A program made the position numbers and the translations under genes. Positions 1 through 35,437 of a stretch of 64,000 nucleotides of DNA are shown here, in pieces. Below the pieces are notes generated by a model. It was not told the origin of the DNA and made no database searches. It saw nothing but the letters and a program-made list of their open reading frames with translations. Each line of letters opens with the position of its first letter. Within the stretch, counting starts at the first letter, position 1. Source of the stretch: Archangium sp. (GTDB lineage: Bacteria; Myxococcota; Myxococcia; Myxococcales; Myxococcaceae); assembly GCA_030695565.1 (NCBI GenBank), contig JAUYRZ010000070.1:1-64000 (forward strand), given 5' to 3'.

Positions 1-405
1 GTTCAGCACCGAGTCGCCGTCGATGTCGGCGTCGCAGCCGTCACCCTGGCCGTCGCCGTCAGCGTCGAGCTGGCTGAAGTTCGAAGCCGCCGCGCAGTTG
101 TCGCACGAGTCGCCCACGCCATCGCCGTCGCCGTCGAGCTGATCGCGGTTCGACGCGAAGGCGCAGTTGTCTTTGTCGTCGGCCTTGCCGTCACCGTCGG
201 CGTCGTCGGTGTACGCCAGCGTGATGCCGTCGTCGGTGTACGCCACCCAGACCGAGCAGCCACAGCCACAACCGCAGCCGCCGCCTTCTTCGCCGGGCTT
301 GCCGCACGACTCACCCAGACACTCCGGGTTGTCCGCACCTTGAGCAAAGGCGGGAACGGCGAACAGCGAGAGGGCAGTCATGAGCGCGAGCTGGGTGGTT
401 TTCAT
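1..405 (-). CDS. Secreted thrombospondin type 3 repeat protein, N-terminal part
   Basis: The gene begins at 405 and reads without a stop to the window edge, so only the first 135 codons are present. A good ribosome site (AGGAG, about 413-417) precedes the ATG. Residues 1-22 form a signal peptide ending AFA. A Cys/Gly-rich stretch (CGCGCGC near residue 45) is followed by calcium-binding type 3 repeats of the form DxDGDGxxDxxDNC at about residues 68-135. Such repeats bind calcium and make stiff extracellular spacers in secreted or outer-surface proteins of Gram-negative bacteria. In myxobacteria they often precede adhesion, hydrolase or sorting domains, but the C-terminus lies outside the window, so the function is unknown. 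The fold call is firm. Confidence 0.85.
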   Translation of the reverse strand, partial: MKTTQLALMTALSLFAVPAFAQGADNPECLGESCGKPGEEGGGCGCGCGCSVWVAYTDDGITLAYTDDADGDGKADDKDNCAFASNRDQLDGDGDGVGDSCDNCAAASNFSQLDADGDGQGDGCDADIDGDSVLN

Positions 406-427
406 TTCACTTCTCCTTGTGTGCGAG

Positions 428-444
428 TCCCTTAAGCAAAGGGA
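428..444. promoter_or_regulatory. Small inverted repeat in the leader of the type 3 repeat gene
   Basis: TCCCTT and AAGGGA form a perfect 6-bp stem around a 5-base loop, about 22 bases upstream of the start codon at 405. It could be a leader hairpin or a small operator. No function can be assigned. Confidence 0.3.
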
Positions 445-767
445 GGACCACATGGGTTCGTGAAGGAAACCAAAAGGTTAAGGCCGCAAACGAACTGCCA
501 AAGTGTGGAGTGCCTCCCACACCCTGGGGTGGTGATCCCAACGAAGCCGATCAGTCCGTTCCACGAAGCGCCCAGCTCACCTCCTCAACTCGACCCAGCA
601 GCTGCGGATTGGCCGGGCCGCGACGCGTCTGCGAGTCGACCTCAGCGGGGTGAGGATGTAAATCTTCTTGTCGCTCGTCGTGCCGAAGGGACCCGTCGCG
701 GAGTCACTGAGCGCGGACCTCAAGTCTCCTCACAACAAGCCTTGTCGAAGGTGATTTAACGCCAGCC
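445..767. other. Divergent intergenic region upstream of amt
   Basis: About 320 bases separate the two divergently transcribed genes. Short open frames here lack protein-like composition. The region contains short dyads, for example CCTCA/TGAGG around 638-654 and GTGTGG/CCCACAC around 503-522. I saw no convincing sigma-54 (GG-N10-GC) promoter, although one might be expected for an ammonium transporter gene. Confidence 0.5.
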
Positions 768-17484: not shown

Positions 17485-20154
17485 TCACAAAGGCGAGCAC
17501 CCCTTGCTGTTTCTGGCTTCGTCGCGCGGGCCGTTCATCGCAGGAATCAACTGCCCCTTCGACTCGAGCGCCGCGAAGCGCTCGAGCGCCGCGCGAAACC
17601 TCGCGCACCCATCTTCACGGCGGCGCAGCTCGATGAGCACGTGCCCCTGCTCCACAAGGCAGATGGCCCTTCGCCCCACGAGGCGCGCGTTGTCTGGTTC
17701 GCGCTCGAGCAGCCTCGAGAACACCGCCTCTGAGGCCTCCAACTCGGTGAGGGCCTGGGCGAAGTGGCGCTGGGCCCGCAGCGCGCTCGCCACGCCATAG
17801 TGGCCGTCGGCCACCCACTCCTCGACGGTGCTGTTGGCGGGGTCTTCCGCGAGCATCGCCGTCGCGCGCCGGCTGACCTCCTGAAAGGCGAAGAGGCCCC
17901 GGTCGACCCGCTTGCCGTCGAGGGCCACGTACCCTTCTCGCAGCCTGGCGATCACGAGGTCACGCCGCGCGAGCGAGGTGGGGTCGTTCTTCGCCAGCCC
18001 CTCGAGCACCCGCAGGTCCTCGTCGATGGTCTCCAGCGCTTCGTCGAAGCGGCCCACCCCGCTGAGCGCCTGGGCGTGGTTCATCAACATCACGGCCAGA
18101 TCTCGCGACAAGATCGCGTTCTGCGGGTCATCGGCCAGCTCCTTGCGCGAGAGCGAAAGCGCGCGGGTCGTCAGCTCGAGGGCACGCGCGTGCTGCTGCT
18201 CGAAGATGAAGCCAGCCGCCAGCGAGCCGAGCACCGTGTTGCGGCCCCGCTTCGCCGCTGCCGACAGCGGCTCCTGGGCGAGCGCCTCTTCGAAGAGCGA
18301 AAGGGCCTCTTCCCAGTTCCGCAGCGCGTCGGTGTTGCGGCCGTCTTGCTGAAGCAGGCCTGCCACCGAGTTGAGCGTCGAGCCCAGCCCCATGACGAAG
18401 AGCGGCGTTCGCCGCAACGCGAGCACCGCGCGGCGTGAGGCGAGCGAAGCCTCGAGGGCCGTGCGCGCTTGCGCCAGCTGGTTTTGCTGCAGCCGCACCT
18501 GCCCGATGGCCAGCTGCACCCGCGAGAGCTCGAAACGCTGCTCGGCGTCATCGGGCTGCTCAGAGGCGAGCGCCAGCCCCAGGGCAGCGGCCCGCTGGTA
18601 GGCGGCGATGGCGCTCTCGAGCTGACCCGAGACCTCTTCGATCGCCCCGAGCTTCTCGTCGCTCATCGCCACTGCGCGACGGGCGTCACGATCTCCGGGC
18701 GCCCGCTGGAGCACCACCTGAGCGAGAGCCTGGCCCCGCTCATAACTGCGCCGGGCTTCATCGGTCTGGCCGAGGCTGGAGCCGAAGGGGTCGCCCTGAA
18801 CGTCACCTACCTTGAGCCAGGCGCGCGCGAGCTCGCGCTGCAAGGTCAGATCGCCCTGGGCCTCAGTCGCCAGCGAGTCGAGGTAGCCGATGGTGTCCTT
18901 CACGAGGCGCTCTCGCAGCGGCGTCGAGCCTGGCAGGTCGGCGATACCATCGTGGTAGTCGAACAGCACCGCGTGCGCGAGCACCCGCACCTGCTCGAAG
19001 CGCCGCTGGGCGCGGTCTCGTTCTTCCATCGCGACGCGGGCCTGAGAGGCAGTCGCCACCAGCCCTGCGCCGAGCGATGCGAGAACCACCACCGCGGCTC
19101 CGACGGCGAGCCGATGGCGACGCACGAAGCGCGTCACGCGGTAGCGGAGATCGCCCCGGCGCGCCAGCGTGCCCGTGCCCTCGAGCGAAGCCCGGAGGTC
19201 GTCGGCGAAGGCCTGGGCCGAGGCATACCGATCGCCGGGTTCCTTGCGCAGGGCCATCGCCAACACCGCGTCGAGATCGCCTTCCAGCGCGCGGGCTCTG
19301 GCTGGGGTCGTCGCGCTGCGGCTGCACGGCGCGGGCTCGGTCTGGCGAATGGCGCTCAGCAAGGCCTCGAGGTCACCGGGAGGGGTGCGCCAGGGTGAGG
19401 TGCCGCTCAAGAGTTCGTAGAGCACCACGCCCAGGGAAAAGACGTCGCTGGCAGTGGTGATGGGTTCACCGCGCACCTGCTCGGGCGAAGCGAAGGCCGG
19501 CGTCATCGGCTGCTGGCCAGTCTGGGTGAGGCGCAGGTCGCGCTCGAGCAGGCGGGCGATGCCGAAGTCGACGAGGCGGGGCTGGCCTTCGAGGTCGACC
19601 AACACGTTGGCGGGCTTCAGGTCGCGGTGCACCACGAGGTGCCGATGGGCGTGCTGAACCGCTGCCAGCACCGGGAGGAAGAGCTCGACCCGTGCGCGCA
19701 CCGAGAGGTGGTGTTGTTCGGCGTAGACGTCGATGGGGGCCCCGTCGACGAAGTCCATCGCAAACCAGGGCCGGTGATCGACCGTCTCGCCGCCGTCGAG
19801 CAGCCGCGCGATGTGGGCGTGCTCGAGGCCGCCCAACACGTAGCGCTCGTGCAGGAAGCGCGCGTCGCTGCCGGTGTGGCGCGCGTGCGCGATCTTCACG
19901 GCCACCCGGCGCGACAGCCTCGGGTCCCACGCAGACCAGACGGTGCCCATGCCGCCGGCGCCGACCTTCTCGCGCAGCTCGTAGCGGCCCACCCGGTTCG
20001 CGGCGGGTGGCTCCGCGCCGGTGAGCGCCGAGAGCAATGCGCGGCAGGCGTCGCACCCCGAGACATGCTCGGTCAGCCGTGCGACCTCTTCGGCCGGCAC
20101 GCTGCCGGTAGACCACGCTGCCAACGCCTCGTCGCTGGGGTGCTCCTCGTTCAT
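17485..20154 (-). CDS. Transmembrane Ser/Thr protein kinase with anti-sigma-like zinc motif and TPRs
   Basis: Residues 1-50 carry an HxxxCxxC motif (H30, C34, C37) as in zinc-binding anti-sigma domains. Residues 57-325 are a Hanks-type kinase with an intact set of motifs: GAGGMG 65-70, Lys87, HRDLKPAN from 176, DFG 196-198. One membrane helix lies at about 349-371. The remaining 500 residues are helical TPR-like repeats, predicted outside the membrane, probably for signal or peptide binding. The zinc domain and kinase are cytoplasmic, ideally placed to bind and phosphorylate the convergent ECF sigma factor. The group II intron remnant ends just upstream of the start codon, so the native promoter may have been displaced. 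Confidence 0.9.
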   Translation of the reverse strand: MNEEHPSDEALAAWSTGSVPAEEVARLTEHVSGCDACRALLSALTGAEPPAANRVGRYELREKVGAGGMGTVWSAWDPRLSRRVAVKIAHARHTGSDARFLHERYVLGGLEHAHIARLLDGGETVDHRPWFAMDFVDGAPIDVYAEQHHLSVRARVELFLPVLAAVQHAHRHLVVHRDLKPANVLVDLEGQPRLVDFGIARLLERDLRLTQTGQQPMTPAFASPEQVRGEPITTASDVFSLGVVLYELLSGTSPWRTPPGDLEALLSAIRQTEPAPCSRSATTPARARALEGDLDAVLAMALRKEPGDRYASAQAFADDLRASLEGTGTLARRGDLRYRVTRFVRRHRLAVGAAVVVLASLGAGLVATASQARVAMEERDRAQRRFEQVRVLAHAVLFDYHDGIADLPGSTPLRERLVKDTIGYLDSLATEAQGDLTLQRELARAWLKVGDVQGDPFGSSLGQTDEARRSYERGQALAQVVLQRAPGDRDARRAVAMSDEKLGAIEEVSGQLESAIAAYQRAAALGLALASEQPDDAEQRFELSRVQLAIGQVRLQQNQLAQARTALEASLASRRAVLALRRTPLFVMGLGSTLNSVAGLLQQDGRNTDALRNWEEALSLFEEALAQEPLSAAAKRGRNTVLGSLAAGFIFEQQHARALELTTRALSLSRKELADDPQNAILSRDLAVMLMNHAQALSGVGRFDEALETIDEDLRVLEGLAKNDPTSLARRDLVIARLREGYVALDGKRVDRGLFAFQEVSRRATAMLAEDPANSTVEEWVADGHYGVASALRAQRHFAQALTELEASEAVFSRLLEREPDNARLVGRRAICLVEQGHVLIELRRREDGCARFRAALERFAALESKGQLIPAMNGPRDEARNSKGCSPL

Positions 20155-22242: not shown

Positions 22243-23373
22243 ATGACGGAAGAGACGCAGTGGGTGGACGCCGGTAGCGAGCAGGCCCTCCGCAGCAAGC
22301 CGGTCACCGCGGTCAGAGTCGCCGCCACCAACCTCGCCATCACCTTTCGCGAAGGAGCGTTCGGAGCGATCTCAGGCGCGTGCAACCACGCGGGTGGGCC
22401 GCTGGGAGAAGGTTCCCTCGAAGGCGACTACGTCGTCTGCCCCTGGCACTACTGGAAGTTCCACGCGACCACCGGCCTGGGAGAGCCCGGCTACGAAGCC
22501 GACCGGGTGCCCGCTTACGCGGTGAAGGTCGAAGGCGGCCGGGTGCTGGTCGACCTGAAGTCCGCCACCAGGCGCAACAAGGCCAAGCACGCCCCGCATC
22601 CGCTCAGCCGCGAGGTGGTGCGGGCGCCCGGGCCGATTCGGGTGGTGGGTGTCTCCACCACCGCGATGGACCCCGCTCATCCCCGGTACAGCACCTCAGA
22701 CGTGCTGCTGACCACCGCGCTCGAGCACGCCAAGGCGATCGGCTGCGAGACCCAGAAGATCGATCTCTGGAAGCTGGGCTTCCGAAACTGCGAGGGCTTT
22801 TATTCCAAGGCCGCGCGCGCCTGCACCTGGCCCTGCTCCATCACGCAGATGGACAAGACTGATCAGATGGAGGTCGTCTACGAGGCCTTCGTTCACTGGG
22901 CCGACGCGATCGTCGTCGCGACGCCCATCCGCTGGGGCAACGCGAGCAGCCTCTATTACAAGATGGCCGAGCGGATGAACTGCGTGCAGAACCAGGAGAC
23001 CATCGCCAACCGGCACCTGATGCAGAAGAAGACGGCGGCCTTCATCATCACCGGCGGCCAGGACAACGTTCAGGCGGTGGCGGGGCAGTTGCTCGGCTTT
23101 TTCTCCGAGCTCGGCTGCCACCTCCCTCCGTTTCCCTTCATCGCCCACTCGCGTGGCTGGAGCGCGGAGGACATGCAGAACAACGTGCGCTCGGTGAAGA
23201 ACAGCGACTCGTTGCGAGACGGCGCGCGGGCGTTGATCGATCGCACGGTCTCGTTGTCGCGGCTCATCGTCGAGGGTGCGATGCCCGCGTCGCAGCTCGC
23301 ACGTGGTGGCCGCAAGGCGCACGCGCTGGAGCCGTTCGAGGAAGCGCCGGTCACGGGCGACGCGAAGGGCTGA
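22243..23373 (+). CDS. Rieske [2Fe-2S] / NADPH-dependent FMN reductase fusion
   Basis: Residues 5-105 are a Rieske ferredoxin domain with complete cluster ligands C47-x-H49 and C66-xx-H69 (ACNHAGG and CPWHYWKF). Residues 130-350 resemble the flavodoxin-fold NADPH-dependent FMN reductase family (IRVVGVSTTAMDP, WADAIVVATPIRWGNASSLYYKMAER, AAFIITGGQDN). Three extra cysteines (NCEGFYSKAARACTWPC) are inserted in the second domain. The fusion implies electron transfer between flavin and the 2Fe-2S cluster inside one soluble cytoplasmic protein. Substrate and partner are unknown. It stands alone, with debris before it and the big surface operon after. Confidence 0.88.
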   Translation: MTEETQWVDAGSEQALRSKPVTAVRVAATNLAITFREGAFGAISGACNHAGGPLGEGSLEGDYVVCPWHYWKFHATTGLGEPGYEADRVPAYAVKVEGGRVLVDLKSATRRNKAKHAPHPLSREVVRAPGPIRVVGVSTTAMDPAHPRYSTSDVLLTTALEHAKAIGCETQKIDLWKLGFRNCEGFYSKAARACTWPCSITQMDKTDQMEVVYEAFVHWADAIVVATPIRWGNASSLYYKMAERMNCVQNQETIANRHLMQKKTAAFIITGGQDNVQAVAGQLLGFFSELGCHLPPFPFIAHSRGWSAEDMQNNVRSVKNSDSLRDGARALIDRTVSLSRLIVEGAMPASQLARGGRKAHALEPFEEAPVTGDAKG

Positions 23374-23551
23374 CGTGTCACAGCCAACGTGCCCGAGTTG
23401 CCAACGAGCGATGGAGCTCCCATCGTCTGGCCGGGGTCACAAGCGCCTACACCCGCGCACCAATAAGTTGAGCTGAGTCAATCCATTCGTTGACGCGCAG
23501 TGCTCGGCACCAAATGATTCACAGCTTCGTCGCCCTGAAGTGGAGTCCCGA

Positions 23552-26500
23552 GTGCGTGTTCTGACAGTGAGTCTGTTGGTGTTGAGCTTTGGGTGTGCCC
23601 CGGAAGTCCCCAAGCAGCTCGACTCTCCCTTCTCGATGGCGAGCCACTCCATGGCGTTCGCCAACTACGCGGACGGCTACCCGTTCTCGGAGTTGGACGC
23701 CGATCTCGCGGTGCGCATGTTCGGCGCGGAGGTCTGCCAGAACGCGGCCTCTCCCTGCGAGCTCACCCCGGCGGCCCGGGCCTTCGTCAAGCGCGCCAAC
23801 CGCGCGATGGAGGGCGGCCGCTGCGAAGGCTTTGCCGTCTTGTCTTCGCTCTTCGAGGCAGGCCAGCTCGACCCGGTCGACTTCGAGGGCGCGACCGCCC
23901 GCGAGCTCACCCTGGAGGGCAACGCCCGGCTGCAGCGGGAGCTGGCCTACTGGTTCGCCACCCAGCTCGTACCGGAGGCTTCGACCGAGAAGACCAAGCA
24001 GTACATGGCCAAAGACGTGATGCCTGCGCTCGCCAGCGCCCTGGCCAAAGACTCGAAGGAGCGCTGGCGCATCGGCATCGTCCGCAAGAAGGGGAAGACC
24101 ATCTCGGGCGGCCACGCCCTGACCCCCATCGGCTACTACTCAGACCCCACCCAGAAGGGTGTCTATTGGCTGCGCGTCTACGACAACAACCGCCCTGACG
24201 CCGAGCGGCTGATGAAGATCGACACGGTGAACAACCGCTGGGAGTTCGAGGCCTCCGAGAACCCCGAGAAGTCGCCGCGGCTGTACTTCGGGGACGCCAG
24301 CAACAAGAACCCCCTCTACCTGGCGCCCGTCTTCACCCGGCAGGGCACGCTGCCCTGCGAGTTCTGCAAGAGCGGCGGTTCAGTGCAGGTCAGCACCACC
24401 GGCGGGGCCCAGGTGTCGGCCTCCGGGGTGGGCGTGTCTGACGGCGAGCTCACGGGCCCGGTCTCGCCGGGCTTCTCGCAGGGCCTCGACGACGCGCCCG
24501 CGACCTTCATCTACAACTTGCCCGCAGCTTCGGCGCAGAACTTCGTGCTGACGCACCCGGAAGACGCCGACTACCCGTTCGCCGAACAGGGCGTGGAGAT
24601 CGCTGGCGGCACCTTCACCGTCTCGGTGGACGACCTGCAGATCACCGCCACCGACCAACTGCAGCTCCAGAACAACGGCGGGGCGGTCAAGTACACCAAC
24701 GCCTCCGGGAGCAGCCTGAGGCTCAAGACCGAGCTCGCGCTGACCGACGGCGGCGCGCTCTCGGTCGCGGCCGTGGTGAGCGGCGCGTCGAGCGACGTGT
24801 CGGCCAACGTCGATCCCCTGACGGGCCAGGTCTCGATCGCGGCGGGCAACTCCGCAGGCGCGCAGGTCACGATGGTGGTCACCACCACCAACGGCGCCGG
24901 CGAGGAGACCACCGGGCAGCTCACCTTCACGTCCAACGGCGACGGCGGCATCACCGCCGACACCAGCGCCTGGGCCGGCGGTGACCCGCTGACCGGCACC
25001 GTCACCAACAACGGCATGACCATGACCGTCACCAACGCCTGCGAAGACGGGGTGCGCTCGGGCATGGAGACCGACGTGGACTGCGGCGCCGTGTGCATGA
25101 CGAAGTGCGACGTGGCGAAGGGCTGCAGCACCGGCGCCGATTGCGCGTCGACCTTCTGTCACGCGACCACGAAGCTGTGCGTGGCCACGTCCTGCGAAGA
25201 CGCCACCCGCAGCGGCGACGAGAGCGACGTGGACTGCGGCGGCTCGACCTGCGCCCGCTGCGCGCTCGGCCAGGCCTGCGCGGGCAACGCTGACTGCAGC
25301 TCGAACGCCGCCTGTGTGGGGAGCGTGTGCGCCGCCACCTGGGTGGTGGGCCTCACCGTCAACGGCCTGCCCAGCACGGCGCAGGTGGTGGTGCAGAACA
25401 ACGGCGGCGACGACCTGACCCTCTCGGGCAACGGCAGCTTCGCCTTCCCCACCCGGGTGGTGGGGCCGTACGCGGTGACCGTCTTCAGCCAGCCGCTCAT
25501 CGCCACTTGCACCGTGGTCAACGGCGCGGGCACCGCCACCGCTGACGTCTCGAACCTCCAGGTGAACTGCACGCCGACCTGGGCGCTGGCCGGCACCGTG
25601 AGCGGGCTGCCCATGGGCGAGTCAATCGTGCTGCAGAACGGGGCCGACGCACTCACCCTCACCGCCGACGGCGCCTTCACCTTCAACAACCGGGTGACCG
25701 GCGCTTATGCGGTGACGGTCCAGACGCAGCCCACCAGCGCGAGCTGCGTGGTGGCCAACGGCTCGGGCACCGCGACCTCGAACGTCAGCGGCGTCACCGT
25801 GACCTGCGCCACGGGCTACTCCATCGGCGGGGCGCTCACAGGCCTCCCCATCGGCCAGCAGGTGACGCTGCGGAACAACGGCGGCGATGATCTCACGCTG
25901 CTGGGCGACGGCCCCTTCACCTTCGCCACGCGCGTCAGCGGCGCCTACGCGGTCACCGTCTCGGCCCAGCCCATGGGCGCGGCCTGCACCGTGAGCAGCG
26001 GGTCAGGCACTGCGAGCGCCAACGTGACCAGCGTGACGGTGGGCTGCGTCGCCTCGGGGGACCTCGACCCGTCCTTCAACATGGTGGGCTGGCTGGCCTC
26101 GCCACAGGGCACCGGCTCCGACTTCTGGACCGACAGCGTGCTCAACCCGGACGGCACCATGACGCTGGCGGGGCAGATCACCGTCGGCGCCGGTGACACC
26201 GACTGGGTCATCAGCAAGGTGACGGCGGCCGGCACGCTCGACCCCAGCTTCGGGCTCGGTGGCCACGCCACGCTCGGTCGGGGGGCGGGCATCGAATACC
26301 CGCGGGGCATCTTCCGGGACGGCTCGGGCAACTTCGTGGTCGTCGGCGGCCTCTGGGGGGCTACTGACCCCGACCTGGGCGTCGCCCGCTTCACGCCCAC
26401 CGGCAGCCTCGACACCACCTTCGGCATCTCGGGGACCCAGATCAGCGACCCGGGCCAGTGGGAATACTTCGAAGACGTCGCGCAGGACGCCACGGGCCGC

Positions 26501-27232
26501 TACGTCGCCGTCGGGCGCCGCTCCATCGCCGGGGCCGGCCCCCATGACGCCCTCATCGTGCGGGTCAACGCCAACGGCACGCTCGACAACGGCTTCGGGA
26601 CGAATGGCGTCGTCACCTGGAACGCCGGCGGTGACGAGTCGGCCACCTCCGTCGCCATCGACAGCGCCACCCAGGACATCCTGGTGACGGTCGCCGCCGG
26701 CGGAGACACCGTGGTGCTCCGCTACAACTCCATCGGCGGGCTGGTCTCTGGCTTCGGCACCGGCGGGGTCCTCACCGTGGATCTCAGCGGCATCATCCTC
26801 GACGATTGGCCGTACCGGGTCGTCATGTCCGGCACCAACTTCCTCGTGGTGGGCCGCGTGGACAACCCCGTCAACTCCGACCTGGTGGTCGCGCGCTTCA
26901 CCAGCACCGGCGCGCCTGACACCGGGTTCGGCACGAACGGGAAGCGGGTCATCGACAACGGCGGCAACGAGGTCGGCTATGCCATCACGCCGGGCCCCGC
27001 CGGCGGCTGGTACGTCGGAGGCCACAGCGACGGCTCGATGCTGGTCAGCCGCATCTCGGGCTCCGGGGTGATCGACACCACCTTCGGCACCGCGGGCCTC
27101 TTCGCCCAGCCGCTGGCAAACTCTGCGCTCGCTTACGACCTCCTGGTGGACGGTTCGCAGCGCATCGTCGCGCTCGGCACCATTCGCCTCACAGGCACCG
27201 AAGACCTCGGCGTCTGCCGCATCTTGCCGTGA
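23552..27232 (+). CDS. Surface lipoprotein: papain-like domain, Cys-rich and delta-60 repeats
   Basis: First gene of a four-gene operon. The GTG at 23552 is preferred (GGAG 6 bases upstream); the lipobox is LSFGC (Cys15). Residues 30-225 hold a candidate papain-fold triad: Cys91 (GRCEGFA), His188 (SGGHALTPIGYY) and Asp211/Asn212 (VYDNN). Residues 290-500 are beta-rich. Two Cys-rich modules (CEDGVRSGMETDVDCG, CEDATRSGDESDVDCGG) follow at about 505-600, then three 75-residue beta repeats (GLP...DDLTLxGxGxFxF...YAVTV). The C-terminal 390 residues are delta-60 repeats (LDPSFG, GTLDNGFG, TGAPDTGFG), which usually form a propeller. The product is probably a cell-surface protein that processes or binds a protein or glycan. 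Peptidase activity is inferred only from the triad. Confidence 0.88.
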   Translation: MRVLTVSLLVLSFGCAPEVPKQLDSPFSMASHSMAFANYADGYPFSELDADLAVRMFGAEVCQNAASPCELTPAARAFVKRANRAMEGGRCEGFAVLSSLFEAGQLDPVDFEGATARELTLEGNARLQRELAYWFATQLVPEASTEKTKQYMAKDVMPALASALAKDSKERWRIGIVRKKGKTISGGHALTPIGYYSDPTQKGVYWLRVYDNNRPDAERLMKIDTVNNRWEFEASENPEKSPRLYFGDASNKNPLYLAPVFTRQGTLPCEFCKSGGSVQVSTTGGAQVSASGVGVSDGELTGPVSPGFSQGLDDAPATFIYNLPAASAQNFVLTHPEDADYPFAEQGVEIAGGTFTVSVDDLQITATDQLQLQNNGGAVKYTNASGSSLRLKTELALTDGGALSVAAVVSGASSDVSANVDPLTGQVSIAAGNSAGAQVTMVVTTTNGAGEETTGQLTFTSNGDGGITADTSAWAGGDPLTGTVTNNGMTMTVTNACEDGVRSGMETDVDCGAVCMTKCDVAKGCSTGADCASTFCHATTKLCVATSCEDATRSGDESDVDCGGSTCARCALGQACAGNADCSSNAACVGSVCAATWVVGLTVNGLPSTAQVVVQNNGGDDLTLSGNGSFAFPTRVVGPYAVTVFSQPLIATCTVVNGAGTATADVSNLQVNCTPTWALAGTVSGLPMGESIVLQNGADALTLTADGAFTFNNRVTGAYAVTVQTQPTSASCVVANGSGTATSNVSGVTVTCATGYSIGGALTGLPIGQQVTLRNNGGDDLTLLGDGPFTFATRVSGAYAVTVSAQPMGAACTVSSGSGTASANVTSVTVGCVASGDLDPSFNMVGWLASPQGTGSDFWTDSVLNPDGTMTLAGQITVGAGDTDWVISKVTAAGTLDPSFGLGGHATLGRGAGIEYPRGIFRDGSGNFVVVGGLWGATDPDLGVARFTPTGSLDTTFGISGTQISDPGQWEYFEDVAQDATGRYVAVGRRSIAGAGPHDALIVRVNANGTLDNGFGTNGVVTWNAGGDESATSVAIDSATQDILVTVAAGGDTVVLRYNSIGGLVSGFGTGGVLTVDLSGIILDDWPYRVVMSGTNFLVVGRVDNPVNSDLVVARFTSTGAPDTGFGTNGKRVIDNGGNEVGYAITPGPAGGWYVGGHSDGSMLVSRISGSGVIDTTFGTAGLFAQPLANSALAYDLLVDGSQRIVALGTIRLTGTEDLGVCRILP

Positions 27233-27246
27233 CCCCGGAGCACACC

Positions 27247-30200
27247 ATGAACCTGCTTACCCGAAGGAACTCCCTGGTCTGCGTTTGCGCCCTGGTCTTC
27301 GCCGCCTGCGAGACCCAGGAACAGCCGCCACCGCTCTTCAACGCGAAGGATCTCTCGGTGCAGTGCCCCACCGGCCAGGTCGGCTGGGACTTCAGCACCG
27401 GCGGCAACGACACCGACATCGTCGAGAACAGCGTCTCGCGCGAGATCACCATCGACAGCGCCACGCTGGGCAGCTGCAACTACAAGGACGACTTCGCCGT
27501 CAGCTGCGACGGCAAGAACGAGTGCACCCGGCTGGCGAAGAACAGCACCTCACCTTCCTGCAGCGGCGGCGCGCTCAACCTCACCTACCACTGCGGTGAA
27601 GAGGCGCCCCGCTACAACGTGGTCATCCCCGGCGACGCGAGCGGGCAGATGGTGAACCTGGCCTGTGGAGAACCCATCACCATTCTCTCGGCGGTGTATT
27701 CGTCGAACGGGCCCACCGCGGCCAACCAGCGGAACATCACCACCGCCGTGGCCTCGGCGTGCACCGGCAGGCGCCGCTGCTCCCTCGATGACCCCTACGT
27801 GCTGAACAACCGGGAAGACCCCTGGCCCAACAACCACAAAGACACCCTCATTCGGTACTACTGCGGCGTCGATCCCTCCATCAAGGAGACCACGGTCGGC
27901 AGCGGTCAGCGGGTGGACCTCCAGTGCCCGAAGAACGAGGTCAAGCCGCCGGAGTTCAAAGACACGCTGCGCGTCGTCTCGGTGGAGTGCTTCGGGAGGA
28001 ACCCCGGCGAGCAGGCAACTTGCGCCACCGCCAACTCGACCCGAGACGCCACCGTCAAGGACTTTGAGCGGCGGATCCGCCTGGCGTGCGAGGGCAAGCG
28101 CTACTGCAAGGTGCCCGCGACGCCTTACACCTCGGGGCTGATCAGCGTGTCGATGTCGCTCACCTACTTCTGCACCAGCCCAGAGGCGCCTGAGACCAAG
28201 CTGTTTCACAACTACGAAGCCCCCTTCGTCGAGTTCTACTGCAGCACCCCCATTCAGATCGTCAATGTGTCCGGGAACGGCGCCCAGCCCGAAGCGGCGC
28301 GCGCAGCGTGCGACCACAAGTCGGCCTGTGTCCTGCCGCCTCTGCAGAACGACGGGGGGTTCGGCTACTTCTCGGCCACGTATTCGTACACCTGCGGCGA
28401 GAACGGCTTTGACGTTCGGGGGAAGCAGTACGGAGTCTCGTCGATCTACTCCAGTTCCGCCCGGGCCCACGTGGTGGTGGGCCCCGACCCGCTGACCCGT
28501 CAGATCCAGTGTGACGCGCCCAACAACAACCTCTTCGCCGGCATTCGCATCGCGAGCGCGCGGCTGGGCGGGGGTGACGGTCTGCTGGAGGCGACCCGCC
28601 AATGTTACGGACGAGACACGTGCTTCATCCAGACCAACAACTCGGGCGACACCGCCACCTACCGCTGCGGGAGCAGCAACGCGACCCAGACGGCGGCGCG
28701 GAAGTCGATCCTCCCCGCGGGCCTGATTCTGAGCTGCAGACCCGACGTGGTGGTGAAGTCGGGCGTCTGCGACCTGGTGGGGTCCGGCGCGCCGATCGCT
28801 GAGTACCCCACCCAGTGCATCGACGGCACCACCCGGAGCTACATCGCAGGGGCGGTCACCTGGTGCTTCCCGGGCAACAACGGCAGGTGTGAGATTCGCC
28901 TCCGCCGGCTGTCGCAGAACGCGGTCGCCCAGACCATTCGGCTCAAGTACCAGTGCGGCGGCGACCCCAAAGAGTACGAGTACTACGGCCAGGGCGAGAA
29001 GGAGAACGACTTCTACAACCTGGTGAAGCTCGAGTGCGCCGTGCCCGATCAGCCCTACGTCGAGAAGGCCTGCATCCCCGAGTCCTGCCCCGTCAACACG
29101 CGCCGCGACGCGAAGCTCGGCTGCATCCCCGACTCCACCAAGACCGCCGCCACCGTCTTCACCGCGCCCATCCTCAAGGAGTGGATGTCTGACGGTGATG
29201 GCGGCACCTCGCAGTGGGGCGGGGCGGTGGTCACCACCCTGCGCGAAGACTTCCCCTACCAGGTCTTCGGCTACACCCAGTACCGGGCGACGGGCGGCGC
29301 GCAACTGCCGCCCAGCACCCAGAGCACGCTGTGGGCCTACGACGAGTTCACCGCCATCGCGGGCGCCGGCGTGCCCTCCAGCCAGGCCAGCACCCTCGGG
29401 TTCCGCTGTATCCTCTCGAACGCGACGCTGCGCGACGCGGAGTACTCCAGCGTCACGCCGGGCTACCGCCGGGTCATCAACGGCGGCAAAGGCGCGGTGA
29501 TCCCCACCTCCTGCTACCGGCAGAACGTCGACGACGGCCGCAACGCCTGGGCTGACGCCGCCCGGCGCGTGGGCATCCCCGAGTCGCAGTTCCGGGCGAA
29601 GTACACCCGCCAGGCGTCGTGGGTGGTCTCCGCCTTCGACCCCACCGGCAAGACCACGGCCTGGGCCTACCCCGGGCGCCCCGCGGTGGCCCCCAACCCC
29701 ATCGGCTTCTTCTACAACTCGACCAACGGGTGGATCGATCAGGTCGGCTTCTACGCGCAGACCACCGACTTCCGCTTCAAGACGCAGGTCACCTTCGAAG
29801 AGAGCAACTCGCTGGAGCTGGCGGCCTTGTCCGCGAGCCTCCGGCAGTCGCTGCTCAAGGTCGACGTGGCCAATCGAAGCCTGCTCCCCACCTTCGACGT
29901 CGACTTGACCTGGTCGCAGCGGGGCGACTCACCGGCCCGCAACCCGCTCTCGCCGAACACGCTGCTCTCGACCAACCCGGCGACGCCGCTGAGCCGCCGT
30001 GATCTTCGCGCCACCATCGAGATGGCCCGGCTCGACGCCACCGCCCCCAACGAGTGGATCGCGGTGAACGCCACCCAGTTCCCCAACCGCAGCCTGGGCG
30101 AGGGCAACGCGTTCTCACAGACCGTTCGCATGACCGCGGCCTTCACCCCTGCGCTGCGTGAGCGCGCGCTGAGCGTCAGGGGCACCGAGTCGTACCAGAC

Positions 30201-31938
30201 CAACAACGGGTGGATGCGGGGCTTCGAGGAAGACCTGACCACCTTCAAGGTCCGCGTGTGCATGGACTTCAACGAGGTCTCCCACGTGTTGGGTGACACC
30301 GCCCTCGACGACAAGTGGGTGACGGCGGCCCGCGACGGCACCACGTACCGGCTGGGCTTCACCAAGCGCTGCGCAGACGCGGGGCTGGTGGTGCTCGAAC
30401 GCGAGCTCTTCATCTACCCCACCACCGCGGTCGCGACCGTCGAGACCCCGGCCAACAGCGCCTCGAGCTCCAGGCAGGGTGACCGGGCGGCCGGCAGCAC
30501 CAACGACATGGGCAACCAGAGCGGCTGCGCCGACACCGGCCAGACCGGCCAGAGCTGCAACGGGCAGTCGCGCAACAACATGGTCACCGGCGGCCAGTTC
30601 TCGCTCTCGGTGATCCAGTCCTCCACCGACGACCAGGCCGTGCAGGAAGAGACGACCAGGACCACCAAGCTCAGCAGCAACATGACCCTGTTCGGCTTCC
30701 GGGTCTTCGACCTCTCGGGCGGAGGCAACGCAGAGCCGCAGTCGTCGGGCGCGTGGGAGGTGAACATCAACCTCACCCCCAACCTCGACGGGATCGCCGC
30801 CCTCATCAAGAACCGGCGCACCGTGGCGGTGAAGACCAGCGCCAAGAAGGTGAAGACGAAGCCCAAGGCGAAGAAGGGCATCTTGAGCAAGTTCGAGCGC
30901 GACGGCCTGGCCATGTCGCTGAGCAAGGAGTTCCCCTTCACCATCGGCCCCTTCCCCTTCGAGCTCGAGGTGGGCTTCTCGGTCGGCTTCGGCTTCAGCG
31001 TGGGGGTGAAGATCGCTGGCGACCGACAGAGCGTCACCAGCATGGTGAACCCCAAGTACCCCTGCCTCAAGTCCACCGCTGGCAACTGCGTGATCGCCTA
31101 CTCGGCCACCAAGGGCTTCGACGACGCGCTGCGCGACTGCAACTACAAGGGGGGCCGGCTGGCCGAGGTGCGCACCGCGACCGATCTCACAGAGGTGACC
31201 GGCGCGATCAGCACCCTGGGCTCCACCAACCGGTACTACTGGCTGGGCGGGCAGCTCGCCTACATCTACGCCGACCCCCGCTGCGACACCGCCTACTCGC
31301 CCGGCTGCGCCACCGTCTCGCGCACCCGCTACTCCTGGCTGGTGGGCAACACCTCGATCGCCAACCAAAACCGGCTCGAGACGCCCCTGGTCGACCCCCA
31401 GCGGTTCATCGGCAACCACGCCTTCGGCAACAACCTGGGCGAGCTGATCACCCGGGTGCCCAACAAGGCCAGCGTGCTGCTCGACAAGGACACCAGCCGG
31501 CTGGCGACGGCCACGGTCGCGACCACCGCGCCCTATATCTGCACCTTCGAGCCCGCCTCGAAGTACATCGAGAACTCGATGGGCATCGAGGTGAAGGTGG
31601 AGTTCTCGATGGGGTTCAGCGCGTCGATCTGCACACCCAGCTCGAAGATCGGGTTCTGCCTCACCGCGGCGCTCAACCTCATGACCGCGGGGGTGAACGT
31701 GAGCGCCACCCGCTCGCGCGTCGTGGTGTTCAACAACAGCAACCTCAAGGTGAGCTTGCTGGGCGAGTCGAGGGTCGAAGGCACCTGGGAGGTGGCCTTC
31801 ATGTCGGGCTCGTTCTCAGCCGAGATCCGCGCCCTGCTGTGGGACCGCTCGTGGGAGATCGCGTCATACAAGGGCCTGTACGCCGTGGAGGGTGACCTCT
31901 TCGCCCCCATCGTCAGCCCGTACTGGAGGAAGTTCTGA
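27247..31938 (+). CDS. Giant lipoprotein with SUEL-like lectin repeats and a C-type lectin-like domain
   Basis: Second gene of the operon, 14 bases after the first, with GGAG 8 bases before the ATG. Lipobox LVFAAC (Cys21). Residues 35-570 contain about six Cys-rich repeats with the plan of SUEL/rhamnose-binding lectins: C...I.I.SA...C...C.GK..C...L.YxC. They end at LTYHC, IRYYC, LTYFC, YSYTC, TYRC and LKYQC. Residues 640-1260 are beta-rich without a recognised fold and include a Lys-rich stretch (KKVKTKPKAKKG). Residues 1270-1437 look like a C-type lectin domain (ALRDCNYKGGRLAEVRTATD, YYWLGG, APYICTFE). The last 125 residues are amphipathic beta-rich. This pairing of animal-type lectin folds on one bacterial lipoprotein suggests sugar recognition on prey, kin or matrix. 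Confidence 0.85.
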   Translation: MNLLTRRNSLVCVCALVFAACETQEQPPPLFNAKDLSVQCPTGQVGWDFSTGGNDTDIVENSVSREITIDSATLGSCNYKDDFAVSCDGKNECTRLAKNSTSPSCSGGALNLTYHCGEEAPRYNVVIPGDASGQMVNLACGEPITILSAVYSSNGPTAANQRNITTAVASACTGRRRCSLDDPYVLNNREDPWPNNHKDTLIRYYCGVDPSIKETTVGSGQRVDLQCPKNEVKPPEFKDTLRVVSVECFGRNPGEQATCATANSTRDATVKDFERRIRLACEGKRYCKVPATPYTSGLISVSMSLTYFCTSPEAPETKLFHNYEAPFVEFYCSTPIQIVNVSGNGAQPEAARAACDHKSACVLPPLQNDGGFGYFSATYSYTCGENGFDVRGKQYGVSSIYSSSARAHVVVGPDPLTRQIQCDAPNNNLFAGIRIASARLGGGDGLLEATRQCYGRDTCFIQTNNSGDTATYRCGSSNATQTAARKSILPAGLILSCRPDVVVKSGVCDLVGSGAPIAEYPTQCIDGTTRSYIAGAVTWCFPGNNGRCEIRLRRLSQNAVAQTIRLKYQCGGDPKEYEYYGQGEKENDFYNLVKLECAVPDQPYVEKACIPESCPVNTRRDAKLGCIPDSTKTAATVFTAPILKEWMSDGDGGTSQWGGAVVTTLREDFPYQVFGYTQYRATGGAQLPPSTQSTLWAYDEFTAIAGAGVPSSQASTLGFRCILSNATLRDAEYSSVTPGYRRVINGGKGAVIPTSCYRQNVDDGRNAWADAARRVGIPESQFRAKYTRQASWVVSAFDPTGKTTAWAYPGRPAVAPNPIGFFYNSTNGWIDQVGFYAQTTDFRFKTQVTFEESNSLELAALSASLRQSLLKVDVANRSLLPTFDVDLTWSQRGDSPARNPLSPNTLLSTNPATPLSRRDLRATIEMARLDATAPNEWIAVNATQFPNRSLGEGNAFSQTVRMTAAFTPALRERALSVRGTESYQTNNGWMRGFEEDLTTFKVRVCMDFNEVSHVLGDTALDDKWVTAARDGTTYRLGFTKRCADAGLVVLERELFIYPTTAVATVETPANSASSSRQGDRAAGSTNDMGNQSGCADTGQTGQSCNGQSRNNMVTGGQFSLSVIQSSTDDQAVQEETTRTTKLSSNMTLFGFRVFDLSGGGNAEPQSSGAWEVNINLTPNLDGIAALIKNRRTVAVKTSAKKVKTKPKAKKGILSKFERDGLAMSLSKEFPFTIGPFPFELEVGFSVGFGFSVGVKIAGDRQSVTSMVNPKYPCLKSTAGNCVIAYSATKGFDDALRDCNYKGGRLAEVRTATDLTEVTGAISTLGSTNRYYWLGGQLAYIYADPRCDTAYSPGCATVSRTRYSWLVGNTSIANQNRLETPLVDPQRFIGNHAFGNNLGELITRVPNKASVLLDKDTSRLATATVATTAPYICTFEPASKYIENSMGIEVKVEFSMGFSASICTPSSKIGFCLTAALNLMTAGVNVSATRSRVVVFNNSNLKVSLLGESRVEGTWEVAFMSGSFSAEIRALLWDRSWEIASYKGLYAVEGDLFAPIVSPYWRKF

Positions 31939-34001
31939 TGAAAGCGCGTCACGTAGGACTGGGTGCAGCCCTCGTCGTCGGCCTCGCGGGCGGCGCGCTG
32001 TGGCTGCGGGCAAGCCAGGAGCACGCTGAGCGTTCCGGCCCCGACGCCACGCCGGCGGCTCTGGCTGGAGCAGGTGCGACGCAGGTCGAGGCCTGTCGCT
32101 TCGAACCCGGAGCGCTGCACGCGTTCAACTACCGCAACGAGACGCACTTCCGCCTCAACACCCTGCTGCCCGGCGCGGCGGCCGCGGTGGCCCAGCCCGG
32201 AGAGGCTGAGCTCTCGGGCCTGCTCACCTTCGAGGTCTTGTCCTCCCACGGCACGGAGGCGGTGTTGCTCGGCCGGTTGACCCAGTCGAACGACAAGGCG
32301 CGCCTGGTGGCCGGCCAGGCGCTCGAGAACGGCTTCCTCGCGCGCATCGACCAGCGGTGCCAGGTGGTGGCCTACGCCAGGCACCAGCAGACCCCCCGGC
32401 TCACCTCGCGCGTCCAGCACGTGATGCTCAGCGATCTGGGCTTCTCGGTGGCTGACGGTACGCCCGTGGCCGAGGCCTCCTTCCCGACCTCCGTCGGCAC
32501 TCTGCGGGCGATGATCTCGCGCGGGCCCGAAGGAGAGCTGCTGCGCAAGCCGCTCAACTACCTCTCGCGCTGGTCTCCCCGCATGGAAGGCGTCGACGTG
32601 GTGGACGGCCTGGTGGAGGTGCGCCGGGCTGAGCGCGCGTGGTTCGAGACTCTGCACGGCGCGGAGGAGGTCGCGGGCGGCGCGGTGGAGTTCTCCCGCA
32701 CCGAGTGGGACGTCAACGCGACGCCGGCGGCGGCGGCGCCGCTGGCGGGCGTCTCGCGCCAACTCGCCGACTACGTGTGGGTCAACGCGCTGGCCGAGGT
32801 CGCTGAGGCCCGCGTCGAGGTGGGCGGCCAGCAGGCCGATCACGATCGCCGGGTGCAAGCGATGGCGCAGGTCACCTGGCCGGTGGCGATCGAGCGCTTC
32901 ACCGCGCTGCTCGAAACGGGGGCCAACATCAACGAGCAGTGGCGGGACATGGCGGCCTTCCTCGACGCGCACCCCGAGCAGGTGGAGACCTACGTGGAGC
33001 ACATCATGGACGAGGACTACCCCCCGGGGTTCAAGGCCCCCGCCTTCCTGGCGCTGGGTCAGGCGCGCACGCCGGTGGCGCGGGAGGCCCTGCTGGGCAT
33101 CTACCGGGAGCGGCAGAACGCCCCGGCAGATCGCATCCGCGGGAGCCTGGCGCTGGTGACGCGCGCCGACGTGGGCAAAGCGCTCGCCCAGGAGCTCCGC
33201 TCAGAAGCGACCCGCACCAACGCCGATCCCGCTGAGGCGGCGGTCGCGCGCCAGGCCCTGCTCCACCTCGGCATCCTCTCGGGCACCCGGCCCCACCAGG
33301 CCGACGTGGTGCAGGAGTCGATGGCGGTGGTGCAGCAGCTGGCCGCTGCCGCGAAGAGCCCGGAAGACTACTCGGTGCTCTGCGGCATGGTGGGCAACAT
33401 GGCTGAGCTCGCGTTGCTGCCCAGCATCGAGCAGTGGACGCACCTGCCCGACCCGCAGAGCCGCAAGTCAGTCCCCGCGGCGTTGCGCCGCTACAAGGTC
33501 GAGCGGGTCTACCCGTTGGTGACGGACTGGCTCGCGCGCGAGACCAGCCCCGACGTGAAGCGCGAGCTCTTCGACGCGCTCTTCCACATGTACGTCGACG
33601 CCGGCCGTCCGGTGGACGAGGCCATTCGCCGCAAGGCGCTCGAGCACCTCCAGGAGCAACCGATGGTGCTCACCCGCCAGTCGCTGCTCCACATCCTCGG
33701 GCCGTTCGCGGGCTCCGACCCCGAAGTGAACGCGGCGCTGCGCACCCAGCTCAAGCTCGAGCTGGAGGAGCGCTCGGGGTTGTATTCGCTGGTGGCCCAG
33801 TACCTGCCGGCCCGCAGCGTCTACGAGGTCCTGGCCACGGTGCCGAAGCTGCGCACCCAGTTCGGCGGTGCCCTGCAGCCCACCGTCGAGTCCACCCCGC
33901 CGCGGGGCCGGGAGATCCCCATCCCCGACATGCCGCAACCTCCGGGCTTCGAGGCCGCCATGCGGGAAGCGCCGCGTGGTGAGCCAGGAGGTGCACCGTG
34001 A
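31938..34001 (+). CDS. Vitellogenin N-domain-like / HEAT-repeat membrane-anchored protein
   Basis: Third gene; its ATG overlaps the previous stop (TGATG). Residues 1-25 are one hydrophobic helix, either an anchor or a signal without a clear cleavage site. Residues 52-250 look like a beta-barrel starting FEPGALHAFNYRNETHFRL, comparable to the opening FxPGxxYxYxY of vitellogenin/MTP-type lipid transfer proteins. Residues 270-640 are a helical HEAT-like array including LCGMVGNMAELALLPSIEQW, SVPAALRRYKVERVYPL and DVKRELFDALFHMY, which matches the layout GN...LLP...AA..ALRR...R..A of the vitellogenin helical domain. The Pro-rich tail is disordered. Lipid or lipoprotein binding is a reasonable guess; plain HEAT scaffold is the alternative. 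Confidence 0.8.
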   Translation: MKARHVGLGAALVVGLAGGALWLRASQEHAERSGPDATPAALAGAGATQVEACRFEPGALHAFNYRNETHFRLNTLLPGAAAAVAQPGEAELSGLLTFEVLSSHGTEAVLLGRLTQSNDKARLVAGQALENGFLARIDQRCQVVAYARHQQTPRLTSRVQHVMLSDLGFSVADGTPVAEASFPTSVGTLRAMISRGPEGELLRKPLNYLSRWSPRMEGVDVVDGLVEVRRAERAWFETLHGAEEVAGGAVEFSRTEWDVNATPAAAAPLAGVSRQLADYVWVNALAEVAEARVEVGGQQADHDRRVQAMAQVTWPVAIERFTALLETGANINEQWRDMAAFLDAHPEQVETYVEHIMDEDYPPGFKAPAFLALGQARTPVAREALLGIYRERQNAPADRIRGSLALVTRADVGKALAQELRSEATRTNADPAEAAVARQALLHLGILSGTRPHQADVVQESMAVVQQLAAAAKSPEDYSVLCGMVGNMAELALLPSIEQWTHLPDPQSRKSVPAALRRYKVERVYPLVTDWLARETSPDVKRELFDALFHMYVDAGRPVDEAIRRKALEHLQEQPMVLTRQSLLHILGPFAGSDPEVNAALRTQLKLELEERSGLYSLVAQYLPARSVYEVLATVPKLRTQFGGALQPTVESTPPRGREIPIPDMPQPPGFEAAMREAPRGEPGGAP

Positions 34002-34573
34002 TGCTCCGACGCGCGTGGTGGCTGGCGCTGGCGCTGGTGCTCGCCGGGTGCCCGGAGCCGGTGCCGGTCGAAGAAGAAGACGCCGGCGTCGAGCCCTACG
34101 ACGGTCCCACCCAGTCGAGCGTGATCCCCACGTTCGATCCCGACGCGATCGACGCGGGTGACCCCATCATCGACGCGGGCATGGTGACCATCGACACCCG
34201 GTGCTGTGACACCCAGTTCGCCATCACCGACGAAGAGCCTGCCGACGCAGTCGGTCTGTTGGAGGGGCAGCACACGCTCTTCGGGGCGGGCCTGCCACTG
34301 ACCCGCAGCGACGCGGGGTGGTCGGTCGCGGCCTGCTTCCCGCTCAACGCCTCGGCCTTCTACTGGTACCGCTTCACCTGGGACGGAGGCGTGTTCGACG
34401 CGGGCACCACCGACCTGGAGGACGGCGGCCAGGAGACCCTGTTGGTGCCCCTGACCGGTGAGTCGCTCCGGGCCAGCGCTTCGGAGCCCGGCTTCACCGA
34501 CGCTGACGGCGTGCGGCGCAACTACTACCGGGCAGTGGAGAGCTGCGACGGGCTGGACGGCGCCGTGCCTTAG
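33998..34573 (+). CDS. Small lipoprotein, last gene of the lectin operon
   Basis: The start overlaps the previous gene by 4 bases (GTGATG context). Lipobox LAGC (Cys18), then an acidic linker with DAG motifs, then a domain of about 120 residues with cysteines at RCCDTQF, AACFPLN and VESCDGL. Short aromatic beta strands (SAFYWYRFTWDGG) suggest a small beta sandwich. I do not recognise the family. The strict coupling says it is needed in proportion to the vitellogenin-like protein. Confidence 0.78.
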   Translation: MMLRRAWWLALALVLAGCPEPVPVEEEDAGVEPYDGPTQSSVIPTFDPDAIDAGDPIIDAGMVTIDTRCCDTQFAITDEEPADAVGLLEGQHTLFGAGLPLTRSDAGWSVAACFPLNASAFYWYRFTWDGGVFDAGTTDLEDGGQETLLVPLTGESLRASASEPGFTDADGVRRNYYRAVESCDGLDGAVP

Positions 34574-34600
34574 CCCGTCGGAGAAGCCCGCCGGAGTGGG

Positions 34601-35437
34601 TCAGCCGAACTGAACCGAGCGGCGGGTCATCGAGCCCACCCAGAATCCCTCGATGGGAAACGCAGGTTCTTCTTCATCGAGCGCCGCGCCCATCGCCACC
34701 AGCAGCGGCACGAAGTGTTCGTGCGTGGGCAACGCGATGCGCACGCCCGGCGCCTTCTCGCGGTACTGCATCAGCGCATCGACGTCCTTCTTGATCAGCG
34801 CCTCGGCAGTCCACTGATCGAACTCGGCGGCCCACTGCGGCGTGGGGTGCTGGTTGTTCCAATCGATGTACCGAAGGTTGTGGGTGATGAACCCGCTGCC
34901 GATGATCAACACGCCCTCATCGCGCAGCGGCGTGAGCGCCTTGCCGAGCTCGAGCAACTCTTTCGGCTCCATCGACGGCAGTGACGCCTGCAGCACCGGC
35001 ACGTCGGCCTTCGGGTACATCGCGACCAGCGGCACGTACGCGCCGTGATCGAGCCCCCGCTTCGGCTCATCGACCGCGTTCTTCACCAGCGAGTGCAGCC
35101 GGGCCGCCAGCGCAGGCGCTCCGGGCGAGGCGTACTTCTGCTCGGAGTGGTGCTTGGGAAATCCGTAGAAGTCGTAGACCAGCGGCACCGGCGTGGTGGC
35201 GCCGAGGGTGAAGGGGCGGGCCTCCCAGTGGGCCGAGAGCATCAGGATGGCTTTGGGCTTCCCCAGCTTCGTTCCCCACGCCGCCAGCTCACCCACCCAC
35301 GAAGGCATGTCGAGCAGCGGCGGCGCACCGTGGGCCACGAACAAGGTCGGCAGACGCTTCTTGGGCTCCGCGGTCACGCTCACTCCGGTTGCTGCAACGG
35401 CCGCAAGGACTTGCCGGCGGGTCAGGTCGACTTTCGA
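34601..35437 (-). CDS. DODA-type extradiol ring-cleavage dioxygenase with Tat-like signal
   Basis: Class III extradiol dioxygenase of the LigB/4,5-DOPA dioxygenase group. Metal-ligand His residues are visible at VAHGAPP, SAHWEAR and THEHFVPLLV, plus the conserved GSGFITHNLR. Length (about 278 residues) fits the family. Unlike most members it has an N-terminal twin-arginine signal (TRRQVLAAVAATG), so export of the folded metalloenzyme to the periplasm is likely. A GTG at 35437 with a GGGG ribosome-site-like run is preferred; an upstream ATG at 35473 would overlap the haem-binding protein gene by 17 bases. Both genes read the same way and may be co-transcribed. The true substrate is unknown. 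Confidence 0.87.
   Translation of the reverse strand, partial: SKVDLTRRQVLAAVAATGVSVTAEPKKRLPTLFVAHGAPPLLDMPSWVGELAAWGTKLGKPKAILMLSAHWEARPFTLGATTPVPLVYDFYGFPKHHSEQKYASPGAPALAARLHSLVKNAVDEPKRGLDHGAYVPLVAMYPKADVPVLQASLPSMEPKELLELGKALTPLRDEGVLIIGSGFITHNLRYIDWNNQHPTPQWAAEFDQWTAEALIKKDVDALMQYREKAPGVRIALPTHEHFVPLLVAMGAALDEEEPAFPIEGFWVGSMTRRSVQFG

Follow-up and report, generated by a model that had tools for sequence, protein, structure and literature searches.

A conserved four-gene bacterial operon (P1-P2-P3-P4) in which a vitellogenin-type protein is combined with animal-type lectins is supported in the window, i.e., the whole stretch of 64,000 nucleotides that was analysed. The structure model of P3 supports the fold of the N-terminal module of the animal large lipid transfer proteins (LLTPs; vitellogenin, apoB, MTP), in which an N-sheet barrel precedes a superhelical domain. 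Computed here were the genes themselves, the fold match of P3, the homology between the C-terminus of P2 and a secreted beta domain ("partner"), the family-wide pairing of P3-type and partner genes, and the conservation of the four-gene order. In the preferred reading, to which a probability of about 0.5 is assigned, P3 and the partner domain of P2 would form a cell-envelope complex handling a lipid or another hydrophobic ligand, which in this cassette would be decorated with lectins. No description of a bacterial LLTP family or of a family of P3 and its partner was found in the open-access papers searched.

All four genes are located on the + strand and are packed within 23552-34573 (Table 1), as the original prediction had described. 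P1 and P2 are 14 bases apart, P2 and P3 have a spacing of -1 base, and the spacing of P3 and P4 is -1 or -4 bases, depending on whether P4 starts at 34001 or at an alternative GTG at 33998. Each protein has a signal or an anchor, again as described: P1, P2, and P4 are lipoproteins with a lipobox, and P3 is membrane-anchored via a hydrophobic N-terminal helix. The promoter-like match given in Table 1 is the sole one in 23000-35000, where shuffled sequence would be expected to yield a mean of 0.4. The operon is preceded by a Rieske/FMN-reductase-like gene and followed by a gene for a LigB-type dioxygenase, both of which look unrelated to it. The host genome has a size of 8.5 Mb.

Table 1. Positions of the genes, domains, and further features of the four-gene operon within the window
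Feature	Position	Strand	Description
Weak sigma-70-like promoter match 5' of P1	23490-23518	+	9/12 positions; not evidence of function
P1	23552-27232	+	1226 aa; lipobox LSFGC, mature from Cys15
P1 N-terminal domain	23621-24421	+	C91 (23822-23824), H188 (24113-24115), D211 (24182-24184)
P1 Cys-rich modules	25040-25330	+	DVDCGG type, many invariant Cys; alignment
P1 delta-60/DUF5122 repeats	26063-27229	+	repeat profile
P2	27247-31938	+	1563 aa; lipobox FAAC, mature from Cys21
P2 tandem SUEL/rhamnose-lectin-like Cys modules, about six	27352-29077	+	module profile vs PDB
P2 partner domain, first half	30670-31071	+	hhalign to family-wide partner
P2 C-type lectin-like domain inside partner domain	31072-31554	+	fold of a relative; invariant Cys
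P2 partner domain, second half	31555-31935	+	very long predicted strands; hhalign to family-wide partner
P3	31938-34001	+	687 aa; N-terminal hydrophobic helix, no lipobox or clear cleavage site
P3 hydrophobic anchor (residues 1-26), then disordered linker	31938-32015	+	sequence; pLDDT < 50 for residues 1-50
P3 beta-barrel, N-sheet-like (residues 53-288)	32094-32801	+	match to apoB barrel 9bd8_A
P3 superhelical HEAT domain (residues 297-642)	32826-33863	+	HEAT profile and AlphaFold model
P4	34001-34573	+	190 aa; lipobox LAGC

The order P1-P2-P3-P4, which the original prediction had proposed to check in relatives, was kept in 13 of 13 loci of sufficient length to show it (P4 included), so that adjacency of the four genes by chance is rejected. 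The cassette spans several genera of the Myxococcaceae at 20-50% identity, the named relatives with matches being Myxococcaceae and uncultured Archangium MAGs, and the same genome holds a second, divergent copy of the entire cassette (L019). In a family scan of 96 genomes, 13 gave strong matches to P3 (E < 1e-40), each having one or two copies, and the identity of the relatives to the P3 of the window lay between 53% and about 26%. In the tree, the P3 proteins of the 13 cassettes formed one clade (support 100/100). For the 12 loci measured, P1, P2, and P3 either overlapped by 1-4 bases at their start and stop codons or were separated by up to 14 bases, and the distance matrices of the three proteins were concordant (Mantel r of 0.94, 0.86, and 0.88, with at most 1 of 2000 permutations reaching the observed value). 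An apparent frameshift or loss of P1 in two loci (L020 and L036) was rejected as a gene-caller artefact, the whole gene being found intact by tblastn.

By sequence, the P3 of the window matched HEAT alone (E-value 6.3e-5), Pfam Vitellogenin_N gave no match to it even at an E-value of 10, and matches of the P3 profile against PDB sequences were limited to proteins of the HEAT, ARM, and alphaRep type. Vitellogenin_N did match 6 of 16 P3 relatives (best E-value 3.6e-7), and two cysteines, C53 and C141, were invariant across 16 sequences. The AlphaFold model of P3 was of moderate quality (pLDDT 71.9, pTM 0.49), based on a shallow alignment of eight sequences drawn solely from the window and its related loci. 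When this model was searched against the PDB with Foldseek, ranks 1-7 were all occupied by LLTP chains over 598-751 alignment columns (MTP 6.7e-15, lipovitellin 1.9e-10, honeybee vitellogenin 8.7e-9, apoB 1.4e-7), and plain HEAT/ARM proteins appeared only from 5e-5. The beta domain alone (model 51..288) was superimposed with VIA-align on the apoB beta-barrel 9bd8_A (Z 15.8, 4.3 A, 219 residues). P3 as a plain HEAT-repeat protein was therefore rejected, LLTPs outranking HEAT/ARM proteins in Foldseek and the barrel fitting apoB on its own, and the vitellogenin-type fold given for P3 in the original prediction is supported by structure prediction. For both domains together (model 54..616), VIA-align against lipovitellin 1lsh gave a Z of 15.8 at an rmsd of 16 A, a value so large that the model does not establish how the two domains are placed relative to each other. 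The chain terminates about 45 low-confidence residues past the superhelix, where the C- and A-sheets of the animal lipid cavity would start, and P3 is accordingly not filed as a complete LLTP. In one cassette (L040, 9833-11026), P3 has 397 aa and a cleavable-looking signal peptide and is devoid of the beta-barrel, a natural deletion of the N-sheet, and the barrel is hence not always needed.

Across 195 genomes of Myxococcota, Vitellogenin_N matched in 59, of which 53 passed the curated cut-off, whereas 14 control genomes gave no match; many bacterial P3-type proteins are already flagged by Pfam. The majority of these genome-wide matches span the helical part alone (profile positions about 300-585), and generic HEAT similarity may contribute to them. 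Of 22 neighbourhoods, 20 had near the P3-type gene a second gene for a secreted protein with the common C-terminal beta domain, which lay before or after the P3-type gene and on the same or the opposite strand. Since the pairing persists despite this shuffled orientation, P3-type protein and partner probably form a functional pair, and this two-gene pair is taken to be the core unit across the Myxococcota, of which the four-gene operon is a decorated version. In the simple pairs outside the cassette, no lectins were detected and the partner had a cleavable signal peptide. P3-type genes with no partner nearby were found in L073 (7942-11636) and L078 (5055-8424), both directly downstream of dnaA and the latter also adjoining rnpA/yidC, which places them at the replication origin.

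The only Pfam family matching more than one of 21 partners was Vit_open_b-sht (PF09172, the open beta-sheet of LLTPs), with two partners matched below the cut-off (best E-value 0.0051). A scan of the 195 genomes yielded 28 weak sub-threshold matches to this family, four of which fell into partner genes beside Vitellogenin_N genes. These four share one profile stretch and represent about two independent loci, two of them being near-identical orthologues and two originating from one locus. The top sub-threshold matches (G186, G194, G090, G072, and G013) were set aside as probably due to chance, their loci having no P3-type gene. That the partner is the counterpart of the LLTP A-sheet would be suggestive only on these grounds, and the partner profile retrieved nothing relevant from the PDB sequences. 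A distant family of Myxococcota has one P3-type gene preceded by two partner-type genes in tandem (L077, 1-3855), both of which give sub-threshold matches to Vit_open_b-sht.

The C-terminus of P2 and the partner profile matched in hhalign with an E-value of 1.4e-7 after removal of the lectin columns, compared to 0.06-0.88 for ten column-shuffled controls and to a weaker 0.0015 with the lectin retained. Because the match is strengthened once the lectin columns are removed, the lectin is read as an insertion that splits the partner domain in P2. With plain hmmsearch, the P2 C-terminal profile retrieved one partner (L063) at 5.8e-4, and in L033 a partner-domain gene is located beside a P3 belonging to the larger clade of the window. 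By these computed comparisons, the P2 C-terminus is homologous to the family-wide partner domain. When the C-terminal domain of P2 was compared by structure, neither VIA-align nor Foldseek gave it a clear match of its own, since the results were dominated by the C-type lectin and by Ig-like regions, and no LLTP was found by Foldseek with the P2 model.

The description of P2 as a giant lipoprotein with animal-type lectin domains is supported. A profile of the SUEL-like modules, built from the P2 of the window and two relatives, retrieved the salmon rhamnose-binding lectin CSL3 first among PDB sequences (5.1e-6), followed by two more rhamnose lectins, and Pfam SUEL_Lectin matched P2 below its cut-off (E-value 0.019; 15.7 bits vs a cut-off of 31.4). 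Expansion of these modules is confined to the branch of the window. In the P2 of a relative (L034), the C-type lectin fold was recovered by comparison to mannose-binding protein 1bv4 (Z 10.5, 2.6 A, 103 residues), and structure prediction, which had been proposed as a check, thereby brought up both the vitellogenin-type and the C-type lectin folds. The Ca/sugar motif WND is absent from the C-type lectin domain of the window's P2, and sugar binding is for this reason not implied. The middle of P2 was Ig-like by weak fold comparison (Z 5.6-7.3). In another clade (L030, 4815-9268; L031, 81-4509), the gene preceding a P3-like gene codes for a lipoprotein that has a clear C-type lectin domain (Lectin_C 4.6e-12) and weakly matches EGF-like domains.

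P1 starts with a domain containing Cys, His, and Asp, continues with Ig-like and Cys-rich modules, and closes with delta-60/DUF5122 repeats of a beta-propeller family. The repeats were identified with E-values of 7.9e-37 (NCBIfam) and 5.4e-13 (Pfam), the repeat profile scoring 124.9 bits vs a cut-off of 76.5, and the delta-60 and lipoprotein parts of the original prediction hold; its papain-like part would stand at the level of a motif only. C91, H188, and D211 follow the papain order, with the His and Asp invariant across relatives; the Cys is kept only in the branch of the window and replaced by Ser in all other relatives (the majority). The N-terminal domain matched neither Pfam families nor PDB sequences. 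The C-terminus of P1 is swapped between branches, with the delta-60/DUF5122 repeats in the window and a Gly-rich, ALK/LTK-like region in L034-L040 and L019. In L032 (226-4797), a P3-like gene is followed by a gene with the Cys-rich modules of the P1 type and no P1 N-terminal domain. P4, a small lipoprotein as predicted, matched no known family and was yet found in 13 of 13 cassettes.

Lipoprotein signals of M. xanthus have been described in which Lys at +2 directs to the inner membrane and Ala at +7 to the extracellular matrix (PMC3222651). The lipoboxes of P1, P2, and P4 come without either residue, which suggests an outer-membrane location for the three lipoproteins. P3 appears to be anchored by its uncleaved helix, probably in the inner membrane, with the N-sheet barrel and the superhelical domain projecting into the periplasm. 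Placement of the whole set at the surface, as originally put forward, is consequently not established. The lipobox signals and the anchor of P3 lead us to propose that P3 pairs in the periplasm with the C-terminal domain of P2. With this geometry we infer a location, a contact between P2 and P3, binding or transfer of lipid, binding of glycans, and a purpose: the C-terminal beta-sheet domain of P2, being the standard partner of P3-type proteins, would pair with P3, and the two would hold or pass a lipid or other hydrophobic ligand in the envelope. P2 itself would be an outer-membrane or surface lipoprotein bearing the SUEL-like modules and the inserted C-type lectin, and these lectin-like parts may couple lipid handling to a glycan-bearing surface, be it the own matrix, a sibling, or prey. 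P1 and P4 would be accessory lipoproteins of the same complex. If P3 is bound to the inner membrane and P2 sits on the outer surface, the two proteins may never meet.

In animal LLTPs, the N-terminal module and the lipid-cavity sheets work together in one chain. A more specific version of the proposed complex is a myxobacterial LLTP split into two chains, in which a subunit with N-sheet and superhelix, held by its anchor, would close on a periplasmic lipid together with a partner chain resembling the A-sheet, the cassette being its lectin-armed surface version. We put this forward tentatively, as a possibility.

The same proteins could instead form a complex for adhesion or recognition with no lipid handling, where the LLTP-like module would be a scaffold assembling lectin lipoproteins for contact with other cells, prey, or matrix. 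Such a complex would be in keeping with the richness of P1, P2, and P4 in lectin-like, Ig-like, Cys-rich, and repeat domains, with the branch-specific expansion of the SUEL-like modules, and with the P3 that has dispensed with its barrel entirely (L040). However, P3 and its partner also occur as a pair outside the cassette, where no lectins were detected and the partners carry cleavable signal peptides; adhesion is on this account unlikely to be the core job, and we regard an explanation by adhesion as doubtful. Proteolysis as the core function, with P1 processing surface proteins captured by the lectins, is highly improbable: the papain order of C91, H188, and D211 in the window would speak for it, but outside this branch Ser replaces the Cys while His and Asp stay invariant, and the N-terminal domain of P1 found no counterpart in PDB or Pfam.

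MTP loads apoB, and P3 might in a similar manner help to fold or export a long beta-strand partner, as a chaperone or sorting device in envelope assembly. MTP being the top Foldseek match of P3, the beta-rich secreted partners encoded nearby in 20 of the 22 loci, and the export of the partner while P3 stays anchored are all consistent with this role. It is nevertheless thought unlikely, as the cassette showed no subunit with a thioredoxin (PDI-like) fold and the P3-type genes of L073 and L078 have no partner nearby.

Compared to known systems, P3 resembles animal LLTPs (MTP, vitellogenin/lipovitellin, apolipoprotein B) in the succession of barrel (N-sheet) and superhelical domain; these are its best structural matches by many orders of magnitude, and Vitellogenin_N matches above its cut-off were obtained with P3 relatives. 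It differs in being bacterial, in having an N-terminal helix anchor, and in ending after the superhelix, with no C- and A-sheets on its own chain; a beta-sheet partner is encoded separately nearby, and the cassette adds lectin-like domains. The P2 modules share the Cys spacing, the C-x-GK-x-x-C core, and the closing YxC with SUEL/rhamnose-binding lectins (CSL3, the latrophilin lectin domain), but are looser, fall below the cut-off in Pfam, and are part of a bacterial lipoprotein. With C-type lectin-like domains (mannose-binding protein, LOX-1), P2 has the fold (via L034) and the Cys pattern in common, although its copy sits inside another domain. Lpt, Mla/MCE, AsmA-like, and Lol systems would share the general purpose of moving hydrophobic molecules across the periplasm, but the domains of the cassette show no resemblance to them, and we know of no bacterial envelope lipid transporter that uses an LLTP-type barrel and superhelix.

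In animals, LLTPs are the proteins that load and transport lipid in bulk. If the two-chain split is true, the fold of animal yolk and LDL proteins has a bacterial relative whose parts are separate genes, by common origin or by transfer, and the system would be a new kind of envelope lipid handling in predatory, social bacteria. The common ancestor of the vitellins has been described as older than bilaterian animals (PMC3538542), and myxobacteria form triglyceride lipid bodies in development (PMC4048283). With a widespread bacterial family of LLTP modules and a separate beta-sheet subunit, it becomes testable in a tractable bacterium where this machinery came from and what its smallest functional version is, and the lectin-decorated cassette offers a concrete hypothesis for a coupling of recognition with lipid handling.

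Outside the operon, the gene just 5' of it (22243-23373) encodes a Rieske domain fused to an NADPH-dependent FMN reductase-like domain, and the window further contains two big Ser/Thr kinase-TPR proteins (17485-20154 and 54954-58304), one of which also has AAA domains.
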